A model generated the notes under the pieces. That model ran no database searches and was not told where the DNA came from. It worked only from the letters and a program-made list of their open reading frames with translations. Positions 50,398 to 60,640 of a DNA stretch of 64,000 bases are shown in pieces. This stretch comes from Spirochaeta africana DSM 8902 (lineage in GTDB: Bacteria > Spirochaetota > Spirochaetia > DSM-27196 > DSM-8902), in assembly GCF_000242595.2 (NCBI RefSeq), contig NC_017098.1:1550001-1614000 (forward strand), written 5' to 3'. The position numbers were made by a program, and so were the translations under genes. Each line of letters opens with the position of its first letter. Within the stretch, counting starts at the first letter, position 1.

Positions 50398-50609
50398 ATT
50401 GACACAATAGCCGGGGTAAAAATGTGTGCTTCCTTGAAATGTAACCGTGGCACCGATACAGAAATGCAGCTTTCTGGGCTTTACCTTCACCGCAAAGAAA
50501 ATCTGCTGGACACAACGCGCCTACCAGGAATTCTTGCGAACCGTAAAGCATCTGACCCGCAGATCGTGGGGAGTGTCGATGCAGTACCGATTGTACCGAC
50601 TGAAGGTGT

Positions 50610-51950
50610 GATAACGTATAATATCTTGCGCAATTTCAAGTTTCGATAAAAAGAAAGTCCTCAATCTGACGATTGATTAAGTACGACCCAAACCAAGTCA
50701 GAAGGAGGACCCCATGGGTAAGATTATCGAGATAAACGAGCAGGAAGTCAAAGACCATTTGGGTAATTTTGTCAGGGAGACGGTGGAGGAAACCTTGAAC
50801 GCTATGCTGGAGGCAGAAGCAGAACAGCTGTGTAATGCGCAAAAACATGAGCGCAGCTCTGAGCGAACGGGGTATCGTGCCGGACATTATGATAGGAAAC
50901 TGCTAACGAAAGCAGGCGAAGTGAATCTGCAGGTTCCCAAGCTGAAGAAGGTGACGTTTGAAACTGCCATTATTGAACGGTATAAGCGACGCGAGATCTC
51001 TGTTGAGGAGGCAATGGTAGAGATGTACTTGGCTGGCGTTTCTGTCAGACGTGTCGAGGATATCACCGAAGCCCTTTGGGGTGCCAAGGTCTCACCAGGA
51101 ACTATCAGCAACCTCAATAAGAAAATCTACGAAGAAATTGAAAAATGGCGCAACCTGCCGTTGAAGCAGCGCTACACCTATGTCTACCTTGATGGCATCT
51201 GGATGAAACGATCCTGGGCTGGTGAAGTACGCAATGTATCCGTTCTGGTAGCCATAGGCGTTAATCAGGATGGTTTCAGGGAGATAATCGGGGTTGCCGA
51301 AGGCACCAAGGAAGACAAAGACAGCTGGCAGCGATTTCTCCGCTATTTGAAAGGCCGGGGACTGGAAACAGTGGAGATGTTTATCTCTGACAAGTCTCTG
51401 GGATTGGTAGAAGCGATACCAGAGTTTTTTCCTGATTCCCGGTGGCAGCGGTGCGTAGTGCATTTTTACCGCAATGTATTCAGCTTTGTTCCGCAGGGAA
51501 AAGTCAAAGCTGTTGCAACCATGTTGAAGGCCATTCATGCCCAGGAAAACCTGGAAGAGGCAGTCCGAAAGAAAGACCAGATTGCGAAGAAACTGATTGA
51601 AATGAAATTGTCCAAAGCAGCGGAGATCGTTCGAGAAGGTGCATTAGAAACCTTCTCGTATTATTATTTCCCGGTCGAACACTGGAAACGGATCAGGACC
51701 AATAACGGGCTTGAAAGAATCATGCGAGAAATCAGAAGGAGGACACGTGTAATCGGTTCGTTCCCTGATGGTGAGTCAGCACTGATGCTGGTTGCAGCAC
51801 GACTGCGCCACATCTCGAACTCAACATGGAGTGAACGGAAATATCTGAATATGGATCTGATGATCGAGTACGATCACGATCATCAGGCATCATAACAGCA
51901 GGGTCACAGATTGATGGACGCTGAATTTGCGCAAGATATTTGACACTACC
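50610..51950 (+). mobile_element. IS-A2, second copy of IS-A, 1341 bp
   Basis: Same length and ends as IS-A1 (GATAACG... and ...CACTACC), with its own 8-bp target duplication GAAGGTGT (50602-50609 and 51951-51958). Direct orientation relative to IS-A1, 29.4 kb away. Confidence 0.95.
50714..51895 (+). CDS. IS256-family transposase of IS-A2
   Basis: A 393-aa Mutator-type transposase whose predicted sequence equals that of the 21319-22500 copy, including the YLDGIWMK, FISDKSLG and LERIMREIRRR motifs. Its flanks are intact, so it is probably active. Confidence 0.97.
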   Translation: MGKIIEINEQEVKDHLGNFVRETVEETLNAMLEAEAEQLCNAQKHERSSERTGYRAGHYDRKLLTKAGEVNLQVPKLKKVTFETAIIERYKRREISVEEAMVEMYLAGVSVRRVEDITEALWGAKVSPGTISNLNKKIYEEIEKWRNLPLKQRYTYVYLDGIWMKRSWAGEVRNVSVLVAIGVNQDGFREIIGVAEGTKEDKDSWQRFLRYLKGRGLETVEMFISDKSLGLVEAIPEFFPDSRWQRCVVHFYRNVFSFVPQGKVKAVATMLKAIHAQENLEEAVRKKDQIAKKLIEMKLSKAAEIVREGALETFSYYYFPVEHWKRIRTNNGLERIMREIRRRTRVIGSFPDGESALMLVAARLRHISNSTWSERKYLNMDLMIEYDHDHQAS

Positions 51951-52080
51951 GAAGGTGTACATTCAGGGATGGATGAACTACTACGGGATATCCCGGTTCT
52001 ACCGTCCGGTACAAAGTATCGATGAATGGCTGCGGCGACGGATTCGCATGCGGGGTGGTGTGGGGGCCGGTGATTAGCAG

Positions 52081-52241
52081 TCACCGGCTACCCGATTTAG
52101 AACTCGCTTTCTTCCTACAAATAATCAATCCATGGCTACTACTGGCCAAATTTGTTCTAACTTCGGAAGTAGCAATATGAAAATTCACCAATGCTTCATA
52201 CTGTTCTTCATTCATTTTCTCAATCTCACTAGAGACAAGAT
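52081..52241 (-). pseudogene. C-terminal remnant of a cassette-like gene, cut by IS-B2
   Basis: About 53 codons of AT-rich minus-strand frame ending EKMNEEQYEALVNFHIATSE, then VRTNLASSSHGLIICRKKAS and a stop. The frame enters IS-B2 without a start of its own. Orientation and composition fit the cassette array to the right. No family recognised. Confidence 0.45.
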
Positions 52242-53590
52242 GATAGTGTCCTGAAACGTTCGCAATTTGAAAAGTAAAAGGAGCCATTGGATCCTCCGAA
52301 AGGTGTAGTAGCCAAACCATACCAAAGGAGAACACACAATGGCCCCACTCAAAGCTACCGCAGATTTCGAGAAACTTCTATCCCGTTTCATAGGTGAACA
52401 GGATCCTCTGCTTGAAATGCTCAAATGGATGACCGAACAGCTCATGCGCATTGAAGCTGAAAATAAAGCCGGTGCCGTGAAAGGCGAGCATGTCGCAAAT
52501 CGGACGACTCATTTCAGCGGTTCTCGTGTCAGAAGATTCGATACCCGTCTGGGCACCATGTACCTCGTCGTTCCAAAGCTGCGCAAGGGCGGGTACATTC
52601 CCTTCTTTGTAACCGAGAAGAAACGCTCGGAACAAGCACTCCTACAGGTAGTGCAGGAAGCATTTATCAACGGTGTTTCTACCCGTAAGATCGATCGCCT
52701 CGCCAAGGAGCTGGGGATTGAATCCATATCAGCCAGCCAGGTTTCTGAAATTAATAAGGGGCTGGATGAACAGGTTCAGCAATTTCGCAACCGAGAGCTG
52801 GATTCAGAATATCCAGTTATCTGGATTGATGCACTGTATGAAAAGATACGCCATGGCCAGAGAGTGCAGAATGAAGCAGTGATGGTGGTCTGTGGCCTTA
52901 ATTCTGCTGGAGAGCGCGAAATACTTGCTATAGAGCCCATGGAAACTGAATCAGAGGAAACATACGCCGACCTGTTTCAGCGCTTAAAACAGCGCGGTCT
53001 CAAGCATGTATGGCTTGTGGTATCAGATGCACACCAGGGATTGAAAAATGCAATCCGATCAGAATTTGTCGGCGCATGTTGGCAACGGTGTAAAGTGCAT
53101 TTCATGCGGAATGTCCTCGCCAAAGTACGCAGCAAACACAAGGAACAATTTGCAGAGCGATTAAAGCACATCTGGCTGCAGCCAGATCAAGCTACCGCGC
53201 GAAAATACGCCAAGCAGCTTATGGATGACAGGGAAGACTCTTGCTCTGATGCAGTCGAAATCCTGGATTCCGGACTTGATGACTCACTGCAGTTCTATGC
53301 CTTTGCAAAAATCGATGCACGGAAAATCTCCTCCACCAATATGCTGGAGCGATTGAACAAAGAAATCCGTCGACGATCAAAGGTGGTTGGCGTCTTTCCG
53401 TCCAGGGAGTCATACATCAGAATGGTCACCTGCTATCTGATAGAATACACCGAAGACTGGACAACCGGCAGATCGTACATTAAAAAGGAATCACTGGATG
53501 AACAGAAAGAATTCATCCTGAGAACGGTTGCGTAACCAGCCGGAGGCTGATGGCTCCAGGGTGAAATTGCAAACACGTTTGGACACTATC
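52242..53590 (+). mobile_element. IS-B2, second copy of IS-B, 1349 bp, without target duplication
   Basis: Ends GATAGTGTCC/GGACACTATC as in IS-B1. The flanking octamers differ (GACAAGAT on the left, CAAGAATA on the right), so one flank was probably lost by deletion or recombination after insertion. Confidence 0.92.
52339..53535 (+). CDS. IS256-family transposase of IS-B2
   Basis: A 398-aa Mutator-type transposase, full length with all three motifs (WIDALYEKIRHG, VSDAHQGLKNA, LERLNKEIRRR). It has three substitutions relative to the IS-B1 copy. The W-to-R change in the MDDWEDS region lies away from the catalytic triad. Confidence 0.97.
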   Translation: MAPLKATADFEKLLSRFIGEQDPLLEMLKWMTEQLMRIEAENKAGAVKGEHVANRTTHFSGSRVRRFDTRLGTMYLVVPKLRKGGYIPFFVTEKKRSEQALLQVVQEAFINGVSTRKIDRLAKELGIESISASQVSEINKGLDEQVQQFRNRELDSEYPVIWIDALYEKIRHGQRVQNEAVMVVCGLNSAGEREILAIEPMETESEETYADLFQRLKQRGLKHVWLVVSDAHQGLKNAIRSEFVGACWQRCKVHFMRNVLAKVRSKHKEQFAERLKHIWLQPDQATARKYAKQLMDDREDSCSDAVEILDSGLDDSLQFYAFAKIDARKISSTNMLERLNKEIRRRSKVVGVFPSRESYIRMVTCYLIEYTEDWTTGRSYIKKESLDEQKEFILRTVA

Positions 53591-54000: not shown

Positions 54001-54094
54001 AAGCTAACGACTTACACAATATCCGACAAATAAGCGCCGCATCTTGGCTGTCTAGCGAAAAGCTCGCAGGATTGTTTGCTTCGGTGTGCTATGT
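54001..54094 (-). other. attC-like recombination site 3
   Basis: On the minus strand the site would run from ACATAGC, overlapping the stop codon of the preceding cassette gene, to the core GTTAGCT at 54002-54008. Inner ACAATCC and GGATATTGT can pair. The inverted repeats are less regular than in sites 1 and 2, so exact limits are uncertain. Confidence 0.5.
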
Positions 54095-54904
54095 GTTTTC
54101 TTTAAGACGCTGATTAACCCTTTTAACTAGAGCCTGATTAATTTCTGGAAGCTTTTTAGCTGGATTGCCCCATTTAATGCTGCGCTCTATTTCACCTAGC
54201 ATAGGATCAACTCTATCTCTTAGCGTGAAATTCTTAAGCCTAAAGCCTCTCTTTGAATAAAGCTGTATTTCACCATTCTCTACATAGCCCACTTTTAAGA
54301 GAAGTTCTGAGAGATAAGGAATTGCTTCTATGCATTTTTTCTTTAACTCATCTGTTGAGTAGTCAAAGCAGAATTGCTCATAAACTTTAGCCACTCTGAT
54401 GTTTATATGTGAATCAGAGCCGTATAGCTCTTTTGCTCTAGTTTCTGATTCTTGCAAGCTTTTTAACCGATTGCCGGGATATAGGAAAATGCTATATTTA
54501 CCACCACCTTCCCTTACAGCTCGAAATGTAATGTTTTCCGAAGCGTCTATAACTCTCCCATAATTCCATGATTTGAGCATGTTAAAGGCTTCTTTTGCGA
54601 CATCCTTATATTTGTATATGATTACGAAGCCTAACCCCTCCATGGTGGCAGGATCTTCCGTGATCCAGGAACTGCCTAGCACATGAGTATGCATACCTTC
54701 TGAAGGCATAGGCATTACGTGGAACACAACATACGTAAATACAAAACGATTCAAGAGAAAGGAGAGAGCAGTTAATGCAATACTAACTGGAACGGCAACC
54801 TCAAGCGGCAAAGTTACGAACGAAAGTGCGATACTTAGCAATGGCACTAAGACAAGTATTGTTCTTACTAAGGCTTTGAATTTACCGCTTACTTTGAACT
54901 TCAA
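54089..54904 (-). CDS. Cassette gene 3: hypothetical protein with two membrane segments (271 aa)
   Basis: Start set at TTG 54904: AGGAGG lies 6 nt upstream, just inside the cassette after attC site 2, while the longer frame runs through the attC. Two hydrophobic segments (LVRTILVLVPLLSIALSFV and VAVPVSIALTALSFLLNRFVF, about 13-55) are followed by an unrecognised soluble domain of about 210 residues. The gene lies between two attC sites with no promoter of its own visible, as usual for cassettes. Function unknown. Confidence 0.7.
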   Translation of the reverse strand: MKFKVSGKFKALVRTILVLVPLLSIALSFVTLPLEVAVPVSIALTALSFLLNRFVFTYVVFHVMPMPSEGMHTHVLGSSWITEDPATMEGLGFVIIYKYKDVAKEAFNMLKSWNYGRVIDASENITFRAVREGGGKYSIFLYPGNRLKSLQESETRAKELYGSDSHINIRVAKVYEQFCFDYSTDELKKKCIEAIPYLSELLLKVGYVENGEIQLYSKRGFRLKNFTLRDRVDPMLGEIERSIKWGNPAKKLPEINQALVKRVNQRLKENT

Positions 54905-54923: not shown

Positions 54924-54990
54924 ACATAACGCCAAAACGTACCGGCGCACATCAGTGCGACCGAGCGCGAAGTGATGCGAATTGTTAAGC
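54924..54990 (-). other. attC-like recombination site 2
   Basis: Minus strand: R'' core GCTTAAC (54984-54990, overlapping the stop codon of cassette gene 2) to R' core GTTATGT (54924-54930). An inner stem can form from GCATCA and TGATGTGC. GCTTAAC is the exact reverse complement of the GTTAAGC that opens the same cassette at attC site 1, as integron cassette logic requires. Confidence 0.75.
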
Positions 54991-55836
54991 CAGACCATGG
55001 AACTTCAGCTCCCAAAACTCCAATGGCAGTTTGCCTTCAATATATTCAATCTCATTGATCAATTTTAAGATGACATCCCTTTTCGATAGCTTTCCTGCAC
55101 ACCATAAAATGTAGCCAAGCTCATTGATCGAATCTGCAGATCTCGCTGTTGATAATACGAACTCATCCGTCACATTTCTTCCTGCAGCGATGCTGGCAGA
55201 AAGAAATGAAACTGGGCTCTCTTCTTCAATGAAGCTAACCCGACTGAAATCAAAGCACGCTACTTTCTTTAGAGCCTCGTTCTTGATATAGAATTTAATT
55301 TTATCGGAATCCCATATTTCTTTAAAAATATCAACAATTTTCTCGGTTGATCCCACCTTGACCAAGACGGATATAGAACCTTCATCACCAAACTTTTTCC
55401 AAGCTTTGATTAGTAAGCCCTCAACATCATCGTTGTAACATGCTTCTGATATGTGATAGGCCCGCTTTCTATCCGATATGCCTTCTGAAAATATCTGCCA
55501 CCGGAAAAAATCTCTTAGATCTTCTGGAGTGTAGTAGTCACGCAGTACTTTTATGGCTGTTCCAAGGGATATTCGGCGACGCCCCACAGACGAAAAGAAT
55601 TCGTTCAAAAGTTTTTCGAGAAACCAAGAGGGAATAACGCCATCTTTACTCTGAGCTCGATTATTAATATGCCGAAGAAGTTTGTTTCGAACATCTGTAT
55701 TGGATAGATACCTAATGAAATTTCTGCATAGATCTTCGAGATTCATTGCTAAATAGAATGCATACTCAATTCGATCTAGGCTCCTCGCTGAGCAAACATC
55801 AAGCTCTTTGTAAAAATGTTTGATTATGTCTTCCAT
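54985..55836 (-). CDS. Cassette gene 2: hypothetical helical protein (283 aa)
   Basis: An alpha-rich soluble protein (MEDIIKHFYKELDVCSARSL, later SSVGRRRISLGTAIKVLRDY). The middle has repeat-like helices (HISEACYNDDVEGLLIKAWKKFGDEG). No family recognised. It ends exactly in attC site 2 and begins 16 nt from attC site 1, so the gene fills its cassette with almost no spare sequence. No good Shine-Dalgarno is seen before the ATG. Confidence 0.7.
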   Translation of the reverse strand: MEDIIKHFYKELDVCSARSLDRIEYAFYLAMNLEDLCRNFIRYLSNTDVRNKLLRHINNRAQSKDGVIPSWFLEKLLNEFFSSVGRRRISLGTAIKVLRDYYTPEDLRDFFRWQIFSEGISDRKRAYHISEACYNDDVEGLLIKAWKKFGDEGSISVLVKVGSTEKIVDIFKEIWDSDKIKFYIKNEALKKVACFDFSRVSFIEEESPVSFLSASIAAGRNVTDEFVLSTARSADSINELGYILWCAGKLSKRDVILKLINEIEYIEGKLPLEFWELKFHGLA

Positions 55837-55851
55837 GCTTCACTCATTGGG

Positions 55852-55909
55852 GCTTAACGTCATGGCTGTGCGGAAGTGGTAAACTGTACGTACGAGCCAA
55901 TTGTTCAGC
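55852..55909 (-). other. attC-like recombination site 1
   Basis: 58 bp. Minus strand: R'' GCTGAAC (55903-55909), L'' TGGCTCG, L' CAGCCA and R' GTTAAGC (55852-55858). R'' and R' pair at six of seven positions. L'' pairs with L' with one extra unpaired base, the extrahelical base that sets strand polarity in true attC sites. It is short and regular, the best of the three. Confidence 0.82.
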
Positions 55910-55913
55910 CGCG

Positions 55914-56939
55914 CTACTTTCCGAACATCTTCAAGACCGCAATACTAGAAGCAATATTTAGCAGCAGTGCAACGCCGCCATTGAAGATGAACGAACGTAT
56001 CTTCGAGTTGTTCTTTTTTCGATACTTCTCAATCGAGTTGGCATCACCATTTGTCAGTTGAAACGGGGTAAAGATACCATATTCGTTGATGGCTGAGTAG
56101 CATTGGTCAGCTAGATACTTGCTTAATCTAATTCCTAAAATAACCCCAAGTCCGCTGATTAACAGCCACTGGAGTCCCGCGACAAAAGACGCAGGGCTTA
56201 ATTGAGTTTCCGCAGTCGGTACAAATACCGGTGCAAGAAAAAAGGCTGTAGCGGTTAGCATGATCGGAATCGAGTAGTTCACAGCCCTGGCTATCAGTTT
56301 GTCGTACTTATCCAACTCTGAAAACCAAGAACCAGGAATTGTGGGTTCCGGCAACGATTCGTTCCACTTGGCCACAACGTCAATCAATTCATCCGCAAGC
56401 CGGTGAGATATAAAGTCGACACGGGCAACGCACATGCCAAGACGACTTTTCATATCGTCATCGTCAAGGTCTTGTGACATCAGCATATGAAGCACATCGC
56501 GGGGGTTCGGTGCCTTCGATAGTTTCACAACAAGCGTGTGTCTTTGGGCTACTCTATAATCGTCCAAATTAATCATGAAGTCCCAGCGCAGGGTGATTTC
56601 TTGAGTAACATTTGCTATCTTCCAGTTGAAGTCTTGGAACTCAGCCCATGTACCGAACTGGATTATTTCCTTTTTCGCAAACTTAAGAGTAACGCTGGTA
56701 ATGGTTTGATCAATCTGATGAAGTTTTAGCTTCTCGACAACCAGCTCATTCAGGTAGTCGACATCCTCTGGGCCAATACAGATCTTTCGACTGAAAAGCT
56801 TAGTCTTTGAATCAGGGCGACCAGCGAAGAGGTAAAACATTGCCTTGAATGCTTCTTTAGGAACGGCGGCGACGACCTGCTCCGGCCGTTTCATGAGTCC
56901 GGTTTTATCGCGCTTATCACTGTTGAGTTCTTTGCTCAT
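55914..56939 (-). CDS. Cassette gene 1: hypothetical membrane protein (341 aa)
   Basis: Start at ATG 56939 with AGGAGG 7 nt upstream. The N-terminal 215 residues are soluble and unrecognised. Three hydrophobic segments follow (PIMLTATAFFLAPVFVP, GLQWLLISGLGVILGIR, FIFNGGVALLLNIASSIAVL). The gene ends 4 nt before attC site 1. It overlaps the stop of the small upstream frame (TGATG). As the cassette nearest the integrase it should be the best expressed. Function unknown; it could be an exclusion or defence protein. Confidence 0.75.
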   Translation of the reverse strand: MSKELNSDKRDKTGLMKRPEQVVAAVPKEAFKAMFYLFAGRPDSKTKLFSRKICIGPEDVDYLNELVVEKLKLHQIDQTITSVTLKFAKKEIIQFGTWAEFQDFNWKIANVTQEITLRWDFMINLDDYRVAQRHTLVVKLSKAPNPRDVLHMLMSQDLDDDDMKSRLGMCVARVDFISHRLADELIDVVAKWNESLPEPTIPGSWFSELDKYDKLIARAVNYSIPIMLTATAFFLAPVFVPTAETQLSPASFVAGLQWLLISGLGVILGIRLSKYLADQCYSAINEYGIFTPFQLTNGDANSIEKYRKKNNSKIRSFIFNGGVALLLNIASSIAVLKMFGK

Positions 56940-57103
56940 CAATACTCCTCCTTGTGGCGATCGCTGTACACTGGAGCAAACCGAAGCGTGTTATCCGTCA
57001 TTTGTAGTGGCCCTGATAGAAACTTATGCAGGCTTGAAACCCCTAAATCAATCCTATCCTTGACCTGACGAACAAAACTGCCCTCGATAATATCTACAGC
57101 CAA
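56939..57103 (-). CDS. Small ORF (54 aa) translationally coupled to cassette gene 1
   Basis: A TTG start at 57103 with AGGA 8 nt before it. The sequence LAVDIIEGSFVRQVKDRIDL, then SSLHKFLSGPLQMTDNTLRF and a charged end, looks protein-like. The stop TGA overlaps the ATG of the 341-aa gene, and that gene's Shine-Dalgarno lies inside this frame. It could be a small partner (for example an antitoxin) or a remnant. Confidence 0.4.
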   Translation of the reverse strand: MAVDIIEGSFVRQVKDRIDLGVSSLHKFLSGPLQMTDNTLRFAPVYSDRHKEEY

Positions 57104-57363
57104 TGCTGGTATCCTAAATCTGCCTTATTGTTAATCTCGGAAACACATAACATCTTCTCTCTCCGGTTTCCCCCGTTCAATGCATATACCCGCTACGAAC
57201 AATAACCGGTTCCCTGATATCTGTTCCCAGTCAGGCAAAATCCGCCCAATGGCCACATTTGCTCTTGATACCGCAGTATATGCAGTTTTCTCCTGAACGC
57301 AAATTCTCGTTCGTTCTGATGCCCGATGCATATTAACACAGTAGTAATCAGTAGGAGAGCAGG
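57104..57363. other. Integron platform region: likely attI and cassette promoter
   Basis: Lies between the divergent integrase gene and the first cassette. On the minus strand GTTCAGG (57292-57298) matches 6 of 7 positions of GTTCAGC, the partner expected for R'' (GCTGAAC) of cassette 1, so the first cassette may begin there, 66 nt from the integrase start. Another candidate core GTTATGT is at 57145-57151. An open frame of about 55 codons (ending EREDVMCFRD) also crosses the region. The cassette promoter should be here but no strong hexamers stand out. Confidence 0.5.
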
Positions 57364-59805: not shown

Positions 59806-59884
59806 ACCCACATCCTCTCGCATGAGGGGGGAACCGATCAACCCCGGCTGGATACGCGGCGATATTTCCTGCGGAGATGCGGGG

Positions 59885-60640
59885 CTACTGCAGTCCGCCG
59901 TCGCTGTACAACAGCTGGGCGTTGATCCAGCCACCTTCTTCTGAACAGAGAAACCGTACCAGATTGGCGCAGTCCTGTGGTTGGCCGACGCGGCCGCCCA
60001 GGGTAATGCGCCGGACCTCTTCCTGGAGTTCGGGGGTCATCCAGCCGGTGTCGGTGGCGCCGGGGTTGATGACGTTGGCGGTAATCCCGAGGTGGCGAAA
60101 CTCGTGGGCGGCGGCCAGGACGATGCGATCCATGGCGCCTTTGCTGGCGCCGTAGGGGAGGTTGCCGGCGGTGTGGTCGCTGGTTATGGATACAATCCTG
60201 CCGCTGCCGGCTTCGGCGCGAAATCGCCGAGCGAACTCGCGTACCAGGAGCCAGGTGGCGCGGGCGTTTACGGCAAAGTGGGTGTCAAAGGCCTCTACGG
60301 TGGTGGAGAGTATGTCGCTGTCTACCGAGTGGCAGTGCGACATGACCAGGGCAGTGATGCTGTCGTGCTGCTGTTCGGCATGGTCAAAGATCTGTTCGGG
60401 GGTCCGGGGCTGCGAGAGGTCGGCTTCTACACAGCTGACGGCGGCTCCTGCCTCTTGCAGCTGGCGGGTGAGTTCTGTCAGTTCGTCGGGGCTGCTGCCC
60501 CAGGGCATGCTCTGGTCGTAGGGGCGCCAGCTGGCCATGGCGAGGTCCCAGCCAGCATCGGCGAGACTCAGGGCGATGGTGGCGCCGATACCGATAGCGC
60601 GGCTGACGCCGGTTATAAGGGCGACGGGGCGGTGTGACAT
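59885..60640 (-). CDS. Short-chain dehydrogenase/reductase (251 aa)
   Basis: The start at 60640 has AAGGAG 8 nt upstream. ALITGVSRAIGIGATIALSLADAGWDLAM gives a modified nucleotide loop (TG-x3-AIGIG) like that of SDRs with an inserted residue. Catalytic residues: Ser in IVSITSDHTAG (about 148), Tyr and Lys in LPYGASKGAMDRI (about 160-164). The end GGRVGQPQDCANLVRFLCSEEGGWINAQLLYSDGGLQ matches the FabG-like C-terminus. In place of NNAG it has MSHCHS, which is unusual. Substrate unknown. It probably shares a transcript with the EamA gene. Confidence 0.9.
   Translation of the reverse strand: MSHRPVALITGVSRAIGIGATIALSLADAGWDLAMASWRPYDQSMPWGSSPDELTELTRQLQEAGAAVSCVEADLSQPRTPEQIFDHAEQQHDSITALVMSHCHSVDSDILSTTVEAFDTHFAVNARATWLLVREFARRFRAEAGSGRIVSITSDHTAGNLPYGASKGAMDRIVLAAAHEFRHLGITANVINPGATDTGWMTPELQEEVRRITLGGRVGQPQDCANLVRFLCSEEGGWINAQLLYSDGGLQ

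Follow-up and report, generated by a model that had tools for sequence, protein, structure and literature searches.

Whether the segment at positions 54930-55857 of a 64,000-nucleotide stretch of the Spirochaeta africana DSM 8902 chromosome is a gene cassette of an integron, and whether it is a mobile one, is the question that this locus raises. The genome is a single contig of 3,285,855 bases, of which the stretch, called the window below, spans positions 1,550,001-1,614,000. A first-pass annotation, made from the letters alone, had proposed that the boundaries of this segment (cassette 2) follow the pairing logic of attC recombination sites exactly, and that this independently supports a mobile unit. 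We estimate at about 90% the probability that cassette 2 is an integron gene cassette, itself an ordinary one, in a small, decaying chromosomal integron. The boundaries are the true ones and the orientation is the right one, downstream of the integrase gene (intI) and its attI site, so this part of the proposal was upheld; mobility was not, and as judged from sequence the present mobility of cassette 2 is doubtful.

The components of an integron were all found in the window: an integrase with the IntI-specific region, an attI site beside its gene, and attC sites on a single strand behind genes. IntI scored 366 bits against TIGR02249 (cut-off 265), in a continuous alignment over positions 3-314 of the 315 in the profile, and is encoded by an uninterrupted frame that is the only place in the genome above the cut-off. 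The other tyrosine recombinases of the genome matched this profile in pieces, with a gap at about positions 180-240, and remained below the cut-off. One candidate for a second integrase, at genome positions 2,576,119-2,576,918, was rejected because the gene, an Xer-like tyrosine recombinase, is frameshifted and has no IntI-specific region. The best 80 relatives of IntI in the genome_contigs collection are 39-57% identical to it and spread across many phyla. GC content is 0.41 in cassette 2, compared to 0.57 in intI and 0.63 in the right flank.

The attI site (Table 1) sits 213 bp from the intI ATG, and its crossover would be expected after the G at 57151, between G and TT. A run of 28 bp upstream of intI is nearly identical to another locus (L031), the match ending at GTTAT. 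The 27-bp element has two copies in the genome, and its reversed sequence, used as a control, had no match. Among the 297 genomes of the class, five carried the element when up to three mismatches were allowed, the reversed control being unmatched in the listed genomes. Three of the four such genomes other than the source (G008, G022 and G036) carry a near-copy just upstream of a divergent intI. In the fourth, G491, the copy lies inside an open reading frame (ORF), which we take to be RND-like from our own reading, and the intI of that genome is on another contig; as the copy is inside an open frame and no intI was found in the 20 kb read around it, it was treated as a chance match. A contig of the same genome separate from that of intI (C17, locus L121, 8.9 kb) holds six attC matches of 16.3-29.2 bits. 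TTAT followed the crossover G in 6/6 attI copies, the search pattern having included TTAT but allowed mismatches, even though these bases should belong to whichever cassette adjoins. The possibility that the element is the end of an insertion sequence was dropped, because the genome has only two copies of the element and three other genomes carry it upstream of intI.

Within the window, a simple attC scanner gave its highest score (13.4) to a palindrome at 59836-59927, which overlaps genes that are not part of the array; the first site, attC1, came second with 12.9. As this scanner was too unspecific, a covariance model (R1) was trained, for which 22 attC sites were taken from other species and none from the source genome; these were 22 of 25 hand-picked scanner matches, three long or misaligned ones having been dropped. 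With its filters off, R1 returned six matches with E up to 5 from the complete window. The best is attC1, at 23.5 bits (E 0.0014), followed by attC2, at 17.0 bits (E 0.062), and each of these two sites lies on the minus strand. The bottom strand of attC1 folds at -8.9 kcal/mol, compared to -5.5 kcal/mol for the top strand, into a hairpin with one unpaired G in the L'' arm, in agreement with the extra L'' base claimed for this site. Its z-score is -1.75, and 12 of 200 shuffled sequences folded equally well, so that the fold alone is weak evidence. The bulged hairpin that the first-pass annotation had named as support for function was obtained for attC1 but not for attC2, which in situ forms no hairpin of R''-L'' with L'-R' (z -1.24, 22/200 shuffles as good). 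When attC2 was given its own R' half, TTAAGC, as in a virtual excised circle, the R stem closed at -12.7 kcal/mol.

The start of cassette 2 does pair exactly with its own distal attC, as had been claimed. At 55852-55858 the plus strand reads GCTTAAC and the cassette strand GTTAAGC, at 54984-54990 the plus strand reads GTTAAGC and the cassette strand GCTTAAC, and start and R'' are thus exact reverse complements (7/7). To give this match a scale, 74 of 91 R1 matches in loci of other species were used; across 18 loci they delimit 42 cassettes with a boundary at either end. Excluded were 16 matches of at most 23.1 bits and one truncated by the end of its contig (L067 1-86), and one match out of register (L058 3395-3457) was retained with its pairs counted unchanged. 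The start matched the cassette's own R'' at 7/7 positions in 31 of these cassettes. When start and R'' were drawn from different loci, the same was true of only 61 of 1,626 pairings (3.75%), and R'' matched the physically following R' at 7/7 in 2/42 cassettes. Because the site consensus fixes AAC/GTT, only four positions of the heptamer are informative. The comparison with mismatched pairs shows that the rule is real and that one exact match is worth about 20:1, which makes the self-match of cassette 2 real but modest support. Since cassette 2 includes the body of attC2, the mobile unit measures 928 bp, with TTAAGC at 55857 as its start and the G at 54930 as its last base, and not about 870 bp as given by the first-pass annotation. 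The gene begins 21 bases behind the boundary, and its TAA stop lies inside R''.

The second attI copy, at genome positions 1,178,117-1,178,143 and 429 kb from the first, heads an array of five attC sites. The whole-genome R1 search, which scored 150 of 1,003 candidates and may thus have left more weak sites behind, returned these five (1,166,021-1,177,063) plus attC2. With filters off the five scored 25.7-40.7 bits, all on the minus strand, and the two that were folded gave z-scores of -4.5 and -5.7, with 0/200 shuffles as good in each case. No intI was found in the 42 kb read around this array, the sole tblastn match being of 48 residues (E 0.29). All four of its doubly bounded cassettes self-match at 7/7, with the start/R'' pairs GTTATGG/CCATAAC, GTTAAAC/GTTTAAC (twice) and GTTAGCC/GGCTAAC; in the first of them the model site begins one base early (GCCATAAC), and R'' was read as CCATAAC. 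When the five starts of the source genome were permuted, only 2 of 120 permutations matched equally well.

A sixth attC of this array is split, between the G and the TT of its R'' box as read from the joined flanks, by a group II intron of 1,998 bp (695-2692 of L106, the region 1,160,001-1,180,000 of the genome), which has Rfam group-II-D1D4 matches and reverse transcriptase and maturase domains. The joined flanks form a canonical attC, with 9/9 L-box pairs, a bulged base and a bottom-strand fold of -28.3 kcal/mol, a site invisible to the scanner while the intron is in place. The array carries Drt3a (405 bits), Drt3b (726 bits) and PDC-S54 (458 bits), a YaaC-like protein, a SIR2-domain protein and an acetyltransferase-like protein below every cut-off. 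A CopG/BrnA-like antitoxin is also encoded twice: the BrnT-like partner of one copy is intact, and that of the other is truncated beside an IS256 element. Two near-identical CopG/BrnT-like toxin-antitoxin cassettes stand in tandem at L106 7362-8596, and their attC sites are near-identical too. This array is the better preserved of the two, and its orphan attI is the interesting part. We entertain, as a tentative and rather unlikely idea, that the single IntI acts in trans on this attI-headed, defence-rich array, or founded it, which would make it a working extension of the integron and not debris.

In the mechanism that we propose, IntI would recombine the folded bottom strand of a cassette attC with attI, and the cassette would then enter with TTRRRY in front, matching RYYYAAC at its own distal attC, a signature that cassette 2 retains intact. 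Cassette 2 may have arrived through the IntI of the window, and could leave by recombination between attC1 and attC2. Its mobility is thus deduced from anatomy, as the collections searched yielded no convincing relative of its protein. The protein had no Pfam or NCBIfam match, its sole match in the phylum covers 59 residues (E 5e-4, genome G433), and an AlphaFold model made without an alignment was uninformative (pLDDT, the predicted local distance difference test score, 48.9) and too poor for a structure search. Identical gene order and flanks in all relatives, the pattern named beforehand as speaking against mobility, was not seen, since none of the 391 other genomes of the phylum holds a convincing relative of the gene.

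Several observations weigh against the integron-cassette reading. R1 missed attC1 at default filters and did not return it in the whole-genome search, attC2 reaches only 17 bits with a non-canonical fold in situ, the start of cassette 1 (TTATGT at attI) agrees with its R'' (GCTGAAC) at only 4/7 positions, and no copy of cassette 2 was found in those 391 genomes or in plasmids, phages and IMG/VR, a search that did not extend to most of GTDB. Could the TTAAGC/GCTTAAC pair be a coincidence among ordinary chromosomal genes near an integrase? The 3.75% background for a 7/7 match and the modest z-scores of the folds leave some room for this, but two model matches on the right strand directly after attI, genes starting close behind each boundary, the low GC content and the recurrence of the signature in four second-array cassettes make it highly improbable. 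A refinement of the cassette reading, towards which we lean slightly, is that cassette 2 is a fossil, inserted by IntI and now fixed by the decay of attC2 and of the boundary of cassette 3. It agrees with the weakness of attC2 in both model and fold, with the lack of a recognisable attC after cassette 3, and with the insertion sequences and intron fragments to the left, while a serviceable attC1, the closure of the R stem once attC2 has its own R' half, and the uninterrupted intI frame are at odds with it. Independent support for mobility, as first stated, was not borne out: the exact pairing has a chance background of about 4%, attC2 lacks the canonical fold when paired with the TTATGT of cassette 3, and no relocated copy was found.

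Within the cassette reading, the exactness claimed for the boundaries holds for cassette 2 and fails for cassette 1, where an agreement as low as 4/7 is matched by only 3 of the 42 baseline cassettes. A fusion of two cassettes would explain the disagreement. Cassette 1 contains two overlapping ORFs and a candidate inner start (GTACAGC at 56963-56969) that agrees at 6/7 positions; the overlap, however, suggests one old operon, and the inner start may be due to chance, because matches of at least 6/7 occur in 24% of random pairings. We regard a fusion as possible, at somewhat less than even odds.

Cassette 1 extends from attI to attC1 over 1,293 bp. Its main protein had no Pfam or NCBIfam match and no relative in the 391 other genomes of the phylum or in plasmids. 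A further cassette between attI and 56969 was rejected, as there is no attC there and the ORF reads through. Cassette 3 begins with TTATGT, and the AGGAGG before its gene resembles a ribosome-binding site; R1 found no distal attC for it. The protein of cassette 3 had no Pfam or NCBIfam match and no relative in the same 391 genomes, and gave one weak PADLOC match, to SduA (E 0.0036). Farther to the left, the IS256-family element has near-identical copies in the region of the second array, and the bases after the intron end start with TTAGA, as they do there. Since fragments of the same intron lie at 50444-52101, the array of the window probably once extended at least that far.

Table 1. Features of the integron locus, in window coordinates
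Feature	Position	Strand	Basis
attI, 27-bp element, GGGGAAACCGGAGAGAGAAGATG followed by TTAT across the crossover	57147-57173	-	conserved copies upstream of intI
intI, integron integrase, 425 aa	57364-58641	+	TIGR02249
attC1, 58 bp (R'' GCTGAAC, R' GTTAAGC)	55852-55909	-	R1 and fold
attC2, 67 bp (R'' GCTTAAC, R' GTTATGT), structurally weak	54924-54990	-	R1
Cassette 2, 928 bp, starts TTAAGC	54930-55857	-	sequence
Cassette 2 gene, 283 aa	54985-55836	-	ORF
ORF1a, 54 aa, TTG start, overlaps start of ORF1b	56939-57103	-	putative coding (layout)
ORF1b, main gene of cassette 1, 342 aa	55914-56942	-	no family match
Cassette 3 gene, 271 aa, TTG start after AGGAGG	54089-54904	-	
Possible R'' of cassette 3 (ACATAGC), 6/7 to start TTATGT	54088-54094	-	sequence; R1 silent
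IS256-family insertion sequence, decayed left part of array	52242-53590	+	NF033543, 338.6 bits
Group II intron fragments, split by another Mutator/IS256-type element	50444-52101	+	match to L106 2110-2697

The analysis of one cassette thus led to a 27-bp attI element that several genomes of the order have in common, and also to an array that has the same attI but no integrase. The self-complement rule can be expressed in numbers (31/42 against 3.75%) and can serve to recognise cassettes that are fused or broken. For integrase-less arrays, the published origins are rearrangement, the loss of intI, and off-target insertion by an IntI encoded far away (PMC8618304), and such explanations become testable in a single genome where the head of the array can be identified.

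Overall, the two loci are of a known kind, a decaying chromosomal integron and an integrase-less array. The window shares with sedentary chromosomal integrons an intI divergent from same-strand cassettes, an attI between them, R''/R' attC sites and a bulged L'' base; it differs in showing only two detectable attC sites, with the end of the array broken by IS256-type elements and intron fragments. Chromosomal integrons of Treponema, likewise spirochaetal, are described in the accessible portion of PMC3607928, according to which T. phagedenis retains attC sites without intI; relative to these, the window has the usual divergent layout. The intron of the second array resembles group IIC-attC introns, as far as the excerpt of PMC7923331 goes, in splitting an attC and running opposite to the cassettes, and differs in being inserted between the G and the TT of R''. 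PMC9024848 states that descriptions of attI sites are poor for integrons other than class 1, and that IntegronFinder does not pick such sites up, which means that attI heads of integrase-less arrays could escape notice; no description of such an attI-headed array was found in the portions of the literature searched, which is not proof of absence. With its five attC sites and no integron integrase nearby, the second array corresponds to a CALIN (cluster of attC sites lacking integron integrases, defined by at least two attC sites) in the terms given in the available parts of PMC9024848 and PMC8618304, and departs from it in having at its head the attI element that the locus with intI also has.
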